Assembly (NCBI RefSeq): GCF_016820585.1
Contig: NZ_JADHDX010000001.1
Span: forward strand, 695,916 to 759,915
Direction: 5' to 3'
Source: Arthrobacter beigongshangensis
Lineage (GTDB): Bacteria; Bacillota; Bacilli; Bacillales_A; Planococcaceae
DNA length: 64,000 nucleotides
Positions 34,636 to 35,407 of this stretch are shown here, piece after piece. Numbering within the stretch: position 1 is the stretch's first letter; every line of letters begins with the position of its first letter. The notes under the pieces are model-generated. The model was not told the origin of the DNA, did no database searches, and was given only the letters and a program-made list of their open reading frames with translations. The translations under genes were made by a program, and so were the position numbers.

Positions 34636-34672
34636 AAAAAGTGATTTGAAATAAATCCTCAAATCACTTTTT
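34636..34672 (-). terminator. Strong terminator, probably of the VOC gene before the insertion
   Basis: AAAAAGTGATTTGA (34636-34649) pairs perfectly over 14 bp with TCAAATCACTTTTT (34659-34672). Read leftward it ends in a T-run. The only minus-strand gene to its right is the VOC gene, now 730 bases away because of the element at 34691-35398. Confidence 0.85.
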
Positions 34673-34681
34673 GCTAGTTAT

Positions 34682-34709
34682 ATTAAATGCCACATCTGTT
34701 GATTAACCA
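34682..34709 (+). repeat. Left target duplication and terminal inverted repeat
   Basis: ATTAAATGC (34682-34690) is repeated exactly at 35399-35407. It is followed by CACATCTGTTGATTAACCA (34691-34709), whose reverse complement differs by one base from 35380-35398. Confidence 0.9.
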
Positions 34710-35398
34710 AAAAATAACTTAATCAAATAGTAGGGGCTCCATGCTCAATCGCTTTTGGATTACTTTAGATTGAACGACTTCTATACAATAACCGTGCTTT
34801 ATATATACAGGGATACGACTACGCCGCATCCCTATATATTTCTTCGGTCATCGTATGGTGGTCGTTCATCCGTCGCTCTCCAAAAACGTAGATACACGAA
34901 GTGCTAATGCTTTTTGGGACGAGCGAATAGAGGGCTTCTTAACTGGAGAGGGCCGCCAAAGATGAAATTTTGGCGGCCGAAGCCTTGCTCATGGTCTTTT
35001 CCATTTTTATTTTTTCTATAAAGCTTGCTAAGAGTAAAGTAGGAAAACCTTGTACAACGTGCAGAGTGCCCGAAATTGCATTTTCGGGCACTTACAATCT
35101 TTATAGAAAGCCATCCATTCTTTTCTTTCCAAGAAACTGTATTTATCACTTAAATATTGTAGATACGTGACAGGCAACTATTCATAATAAGATGACCGGA
35201 AAATGCATGGCTAGAAATGACGAAGTCATTTCTAGCCATGCTTACTCCTGAAGGAGGAATGAACCCCAATTCCTCCTTGGTAATTATGTCTTGAATAGTT
35301 GGCCGAAAGCGAACCGGAAATGAGCTAGTGAAAAATATAGTTTTCAAACCTTTGTTTATCTGCGATTTATTCAAGTAAATGGTTAATCAACAGACGTG
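34691..35398. mobile_element. 708-bp non-coding structured insertion with TIRs and 9-bp TSD
   Basis: Bounded by 19-bp terminal inverted repeats (18/19 identical) and an exact 9-bp direct repeat, the hallmarks of a DNA-transposon-type insertion. No frame inside has a ribosome site or a recognisable product; the three longest frames (82 codons or fewer) run through hairpins. Instead it contains nested hairpins: 34771-34868, 34874-34925, 34921-34990, 35013-35109 and 35175-35301, including a perfect 17-bp stem with a GAA loop (35205-35241). It resembles a large MITE, or a mobile structured-RNA element; no transposase is present, so it would be moved in trans. The family is unknown to me. Confidence 0.85.
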
Positions 35399-35407
35399 AT
35401 TAAATGC
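35380..35407 (-). repeat. Right terminal inverted repeat and target duplication
   Basis: TGGTTAATCAACAGACGTG (35380-35398) is the inverted partner of 34691-34709, followed by ATTAAATGC (35399-35407). The duplication overlaps the last codons and stop of the VOC gene, which therefore stays intact. Confidence 0.9.

Follow-up and report, generated by a model that had tools for sequence, protein, structure and literature searches.

The locus considered here raises a simple question: what is a 708-bp insertion that carries no gene, and does any part of it matter once it has been inserted? In the window, i.e. the whole 64,000-nucleotide stretch of DNA that was analysed, direct reading and a repeat finder place this non-autonomous element at 34691-35398 (no strand assigned), which leaves 708 bp between its outer ends. 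It begins with a 19-bp terminal inverted repeat (TIR) at 34691-34709, CACATCTGTTGATTAACCA on the plus strand, and ends with a second 19-bp TIR at 35380-35398, which reads CACGTCTGTTGATTAACCA on the minus strand; 18 of the 19 bases are identical. The 9-bp target duplication ATTAAATGC is found at 34682-34690 and, as a perfect match, at 35399-35407 (both strandless). Just left of the insertion, as a neighbour outside the element, lies a hairpin with a perfect 14-bp stem and tracts of A and T (34636-34672, no strand), which by eye resembles a host terminator.

Four ORFs of 50-81 aa are present inside the element. None of them has a Pfam match over the curated cut-off and one has a single sub-threshold match (E 0.086). 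Across the 92 copies described below, the median length of the longest stop-free frame is 84.5 codons versus 71 in shuffled copies (95th percentile 109): open frames are slightly longer than in shuffled copies, yet a convincing gene is absent. A gene inside the element is therefore ruled out by the Pfam results and by frame lengths close to those of shuffled copies. An Rfam search returned nine matches up to E 1, none at the gathering score (the best reached 32 bits versus 50), which rules out a known large structured Rfam RNA. Carriage on a plasmid or a phage was ruled out by zero matches in the plasmid and phage collections, and a tRNA search found none. The initial annotation had given the boundaries, the 18/19 match of the TIRs and the flanking ATTAAATGC exactly, and its reading that neither a credible gene nor a transposase lies inside holds. 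It had also called the element long for a miniature inverted-repeat transposable element (MITE), which is accurate since MITEs are customarily under about 0.6 kb, although this is not a strict limit.

As the initial annotation had advised, copies were searched for in the source genome and its relatives. The source genome (a draft of 49 contigs) contains 49 pieces matching the element, the nearest copy found being 90% identical. Among the loci retrieved from it, 12 copies have paired ends and 8 of these have 8 or 9 of the 9 duplication bases. Matches were found in 8 of 61 genomes (the source genome and 60 relatives), all in one genus. When the query was taken from another subgroup, matches appeared in 9 of 14 chosen genomes, four of which harbor 84-89 pieces each. 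We collected 92 distinct full-length copies of 639-819 bp, 91 from this genus, taken to be Sporosarcina since it shares identical elements with named Sporosarcina records, and one from Psychrobacillus soli. Copies were admitted on 7 or more of the 9 duplication bases or on no more than 7 mismatches across both ends. At least 8 of the 9 duplication bases are present at the correct offset in 61 of the 92 copies, a figure that this entry rule somewhat favours, versus 0-3 of 92 at eleven other offsets. These shifted-offset counts exclude chance as the origin of the duplications.

Furthermore, an empty site was found for another copy (L068), carried by Sporosarcina sp. E16_8 (G002) at 54 bp from a gene that we take to be hemL-like and 132 bp from one that we take to be spoVID-like (both named by eye from translations). 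The same place in genome G031 (L147) has a single TATTAAAAC and no element. A third genome, G070, has a copy at this place, only 78% alike and closer to other G070 copies. At the window locus itself, the right flank is matched in 11 of 68 genomes of the genus and, the source genome aside, the neighbouring VOC-type gene is found only in G085, where the gene is similar and the left flank is not shared. Comparison of copies thus confirms the mobility of the family, and the cut-and-paste insertion proposed by the initial annotation is supported both by copies with their own 9-bp duplications and by the empty allele at another site. Its suggestion of recent activity, drawn from the near-identity of the ends, does not follow, because matching ends are insufficient when the nearest copy in the same genome is only 90% identical. 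In addition, Sporosarcina sp. E16_8 harbors four short versions of 321-484 bp (L079:2419-2754, L094:4912-5395, L099:1878-2198 and L065:1990-2418) that share these ends and keep 8-9 of 9 duplication bases, possibly internal deletions that still moved.

The context of the insertions was also considered. The flanking frames, judged by length alone, are convergent at 33 of 79 classifiable copies versus 69 of 319 classifiable random intergenic points. With a strict terminator finder, 8 of 92 insertions lie within 25 bp of a terminator versus 27 of 500 intergenic and 8 of 365 shifted points, i.e. not in clear excess. A looser finder, whose rule was set after the strict result was known, places 34 of 92 insertions within 30 bp of a terminator-like hairpin versus 49 of 400 intergenic and 7 of 400 shuffled points; within 5 bp it gives no excess (7 of 92 versus 25 of 400 intergenic points). 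Moreover, two copies (L193:1501 and L273:578) occupy the same chromosomal place in two species, in opposite orientation and a few bases apart. Each is closer to other copies than to the other one. They are very likely independent insertions, and their placement suggests insertion hot spots.

An element devoid of transposase must be compared with elements sharing its ends. An exact scan of the named genome collection with the right-end 19-mer gave 56 stretches, in Sporosarcina, Paenibacillus, Alkalicoccus, Lysinibacillus, Viridibacillus, Filibacter and Psychrobacillus. The autonomous relative predicted by the initial annotation, sharing these ends and making a 9-bp duplication, does exist in Sporosarcina limicola, Paenibacillus brasilensis and Lysinibacillus macroides, as insertion sequences (ISs) of 1.25-1.3 kb belonging to the IS4 family. 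It was not found in the source genome: relatives of the S. limicola transposase are absent from this draft at E <= 1e-20, and a scan at E <= 1e-70 finds none there either. Three ISs of 1248-1301 bp (L057, L070 and L080) have 9/9 duplications and transposases of 373-382 aa. All three transposases score above the cut-off of NCBIfam NF033592 (IS4 family transposase), contain DDE_Tnp_1 and show the Y-2-R-3-E-6-K spacing of the IS4 family, read directly from their translations. These three and L073, within the same 1248-1301 bp, have CA ends, a T at position 9 and a 9-bp duplication. The IS4Sa row in Table 1 of PMC2266710 gives 1150-1750 bp, CA------T ends and an 8-10 bp duplication; the autonomous relatives fit this subgroup by the features of that table, not by a tree.

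Twelve end-paired elements have a transposase sequence. Eight of them (L057, L070, L073, L080, L107, L114, L115 and L116) have 9/9 duplication bases and the other four (L091, L101, L103 and L113) only 2-3 of 9. By blastn, 0-46 bases of the window element can be aligned with these 12 ISs. By this measure, the similarity of the window element to IS4-family ISs does not extend past its ends. One of the ISs, from Paenibacillus terrae (L091:4537-5465), has a masked stretch within the transposase gene. Other elements from Alkalicoccus chagannorensis (L060:1846-2732, 887 bp; L064:4084-4471, 388 bp; L102:4704-5993, 1290 bp) have the same 19-bp ends, 9/9 duplications and interiors unlike that of the window element. 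Inspection by eye revealed no transposase-like frame in L060 or L102; L060 is, moreover, strongly structured (z -8.5 to -9.6).

The unusual part of the element is its set of internal hairpins, which were absent from the first reading. On either strand, the window element folds far better than its shuffles (z -16.5 and -14.6). In a comparison of 17 sequences, z was -9.7 to -14.4 for five family copies from the genus and -16.3 for the Psychrobacillus homologue, versus -1.3 to -6.0 for four ISs, -2.7 to -8.5 for four Alkalicoccus elements sharing these ends and 0.3 to -3.2 for three controls from the window. From both strands of 31 aligned copies, 152 pairs were predicted. Mapped on the tree, these pairs account for 57 double compensatory changes, versus 1-5 when the partners are slid by eight offsets, and 40 of the 57 fall in the inner stems of the outer hairpins, H1 and H4. 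Plus-strand mispairs are about equally G-U (108) and A-C (133), which gives no sign of selection acting on a single RNA strand; that reading was set aside as unsupported. When the consensus left half is aligned with the reverse complement of the right half, the score is 118, versus a mean of 31 and a maximum of 53 in 500 shuffles. The interior consists of two diverged inverted halves full of hairpins. Since this score is above those of all shuffles, an old inverted duplication seems to have produced the interior, H1 being the counterpart of H4 and H2 that of H3.

H1 (34804-34838, plus strand) and H4 (35205-35241, minus strand) are inward-facing and terminator-like; in the window copy, 13 of 16 positions of H1 are paired and all 17 pairs of H4 are intact. 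At least five T are found in the eight bases following the H1 stem on the plus strand in 69 of 92 copies and on the minus strand in 0 of 92. The same is true of H4 on the minus strand in 63 of 92 copies and on the plus strand in 0 of 92. H1 and H4 therefore look like inward-facing terminators, because their T-rich tails lie on opposite, inward-reading strands only. Both keep their pairing through paired changes while carrying these tails. A generic terminator scan detected three sites in each of two copies, L044 and L098, versus 0.6 and 0.4 expected: at H1, at H4 and, in each, one at H2. The same scan gave no call in the window copy, including at H1.

The inner hairpins H2 (34951-34978) and H3 (35065-35092) share the loop AAATTGYATCTT, read on the minus strand in H2 and on the plus strand in H3. 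In the window copy all 10 stem pairs are intact in both and each loop is one base off AAATTGYATCTT. Read outward, the loop has two main forms, found in 54 and 22 of the 92 copies for H2 and in 44 and 30 for H3. On terminal branches of the copy tree, for which 4 of the 92 rows (two ragged, two near-identical) were left out, changes affect 1.8% of H2 and 2.4% of H3, versus 7.6% of the TIRs and 7.4% of the unpaired rest. For the outer hairpins, the values are 4.5% (H1) and 6.1% (H4) in the inner stems and 5.5% (H1) and 6.5% (H4) in the outer stems. With the inner TIR bases alone as control, H2 and H3 change at 2.1% versus 5.75% (p 3e-13); in columns without internal-branch change only, at 1.4% versus 4.1% (p 1e-18). 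Moreover, the 30 slowest 14-column segments of the alignment are all at H2 or H3. On terminal branches, the two inner hairpins thus accumulate 3-4 times fewer changes than the ends, and they seem constrained after insertion. This is suggested because the TIRs, which are needed for movement, decay like the rest and yet H2 and H3 are slower. They are rather the extreme of a range, since the inner and outer stems of H1 are also below the TIRs, and terminal branches of this tree include time before insertion too.

Constraint after insertion was also considered with copies at the same site in two genomes. In four secure orthologue pairs, the count for H2 and H3 is 2 of 224 versus 102 of 2554 (p 0.015), and one secure pair taken alone shows little contrast (1/56 versus 38/581). 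These pairs provide modest evidence that H2 and H3 are protected. A singleton count, which is under-powered and from which 5 of the 92 rows were left out, puts H2 below the TIRs (p 0.05) and H3 not. A larger set of same-site "orthologous" pairs (11 counted, 9 in the profile) was dropped as a basis for this constraint. Among 13 same-site pairs examined, most of the diverged ones do not consist of mutual best matches, and of 12 such pairs seven have no shared rare state and an eighth has one. Pairs without shared rare states may result from an insertion shortly before the species split or from repeated insertion at one site.

Slow change in H2 and H3 could mean that the host uses them as a chromosomal or regulatory site and keeps the copies for that purpose. 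The terminal-branch rates far below those of the TIRs speak for such domestication. The 20-base hairpin core is found in 26 of 261 genomes of the family (3 of 19 genera), and its reversed pattern has no match among the matches listed. The consensus H3 is unchanged in the Psychrobacillus soli element, which is only 59-69% alike overall. Furthermore, a transposase is detected at E <= 1e-70, a threshold that could miss a more distant one, in 24 of the 261 genomes; G002 alone carries both it and the core, and the other 25 of the 26 carriers have zero match. In one genus (g38, probably Psychrobacillus, judging by L098), 13 of 19 genomes have the core, with 1 to 19 matches each, and none of these carriers has a transposase at this threshold. 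However, the copy number of the core varies widely: the 11 Sporosarcina carriers have from 2 to 63 matches, whereas the core is absent from 57 of 68 genomes of this genus; no factor or phenotype is known, and the terminal branches also hold pre-insertion time. We therefore regard full domestication as possible, if rather doubtful.

The family could also be a neutral MITE whose hairpins are by-products of the inverted duplication, H1 and H4 being kept paired not by selection but by strand-switch copying at replication, and H2 and H3 having been needed for movement only. This would account for the similar decay of the unpaired body and the TIRs and for the double changes of H1 and H4, which have few single-change intermediates. 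It is unlikely, as H2 and H3 are protected beyond the TIRs although movement needs the TIRs too, and as the T tails lie on one strand only, in 69 (H1) and 63 (H4) of 92 copies. Finally, a cargo RNA, i.e. a large structured non-coding RNA whose transcription would cross the element and which would be its selected product, comparable to the large bacterial RNAs GOLLD, ROOL and OLE, is most improbable: despite the very strong fold on both strands, the paired changes and the complementarity of the H2 and H3 consensus loops on one strand, G-U is not preferred over A-C, the paired changes are mainly in H1 and H4 with T tails in opposite directions, promoter-like sites in the three copies scanned do not clearly exceed those of shuffles, all Rfam families stay below their gathering scores, and the H2 and H3 loop variants combine freely, which rules out covariation between the loops.

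The reading that we prefer, and consider likely, is that of a high-copy, non-autonomous MITE-like element of Sporosarcina moved in trans by an IS4-type transposase, with probable inward-facing terminators and, in H2 and H3, perhaps a site for a host factor. An IS4-family DDE transposase would excise the element and paste it at a staggered 9-bp cut. Because no such enzyme was found in most carriers, the source genome included, copies there are probably stranded and decaying. H1 and H4 would act as terminators blocking outside transcription from running through the element. With less certainty, H2 and H3 and their common loop may form a sequence-specific site for a host factor, needed during the spread of the element and still constrained in inserted copies. 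Several observations weigh against this reading: transposition was inferred from sequence rather than observed; the source genome has no match to this type of transposase, and only 1 of the 26 hairpin-carrying genomes has one at the stricter threshold; four of the 12 end-paired transposase elements lack a full duplication; the window copy has no terminator call; G-U and A-C changes give no sign of one-strand RNA selection; H1, including its outer stem, is also slower than the TIRs; and the secure-pair evidence for H2 and H3 is modest, one pair alone showing little contrast.

A bolder version, which we put forward tentatively and which may well be wrong, would make the family a self-insulated mobile carrier: the two inward terminators would shield the element, an undescribed factor of Sporosarcina and Psychrobacillus would read the twin H2/H3 hairpins and their loop AAATTGYATCTT as DNA or RNA, and host selection would persist after insertion and after loss of the transposase. 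Mobile repeats without genes are commonly regarded as scrap that decays after insertion. Here, the ends decay like the unpaired body and two 28-bp hairpins change far less, in copies from many genomes, nearly all devoid of the tested transposase. Should this contrast hold, a working site is being spread around chromosomes by the family, and its loop sequence is a direct handle on whatever reads it. Otherwise, the family would still offer a clean and large example of IS4-type trans-mobilisation, with hairpins resembling terminators, that can serve the annotation of Sporosarcina genomes.

Among the open-licence papers listed, titles and the beginnings of abstracts gave no description of this element family. 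Among known systems, Tn3-derived TIMEs, which have 38-bp TIRs and a 5-bp duplication, are ruled out by the 19-bp TIRs and the 9-bp duplication. REP/BIME palindromes and bcr-type repeats are conserved extragenic hairpins present in many copies; they differ in that the hairpins of this family lie within an element that has TIRs and makes 9-bp duplications. In the Bacillus cereus group, mobile insertion cassettes of the MIC231 type have the ends of IS231 (IS4 family), are moved in trans and carry passenger genes. The window element resembles them as a transposase-less cassette between IS4-family ends and differs in carrying hairpins only, no passenger gene being found between its ends. It has in common with bacterial MITEs TIRs, a fixed-length duplication, a gene-free interior devoid of transposase, many copies per genome and ends common to an autonomous element, found in other genomes and not in its own. 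However, this family is longer, structured throughout, made of two inverted halves and endowed with an inner hairpin pair that outlasts the ends. As 708 bp exceeds the customary length, we file the element as MITE-like rather than as a typical MITE. Its autonomous relatives share with the IS4Sa subgroup, as tabulated in PMC2266710, the YREK spacing, the length, the CA ends with T at position 9 and the 9-bp duplications, whereas the window element has neither a transposase nor an IS-derived interior. Hence, the mover is of a known kind, an IS4-type non-autonomous element that would be moved in trans and is longer than a customary MITE. The interior, which combines terminator-like outer hairpins with a seemingly constrained inner pair of putative function, is unusual.
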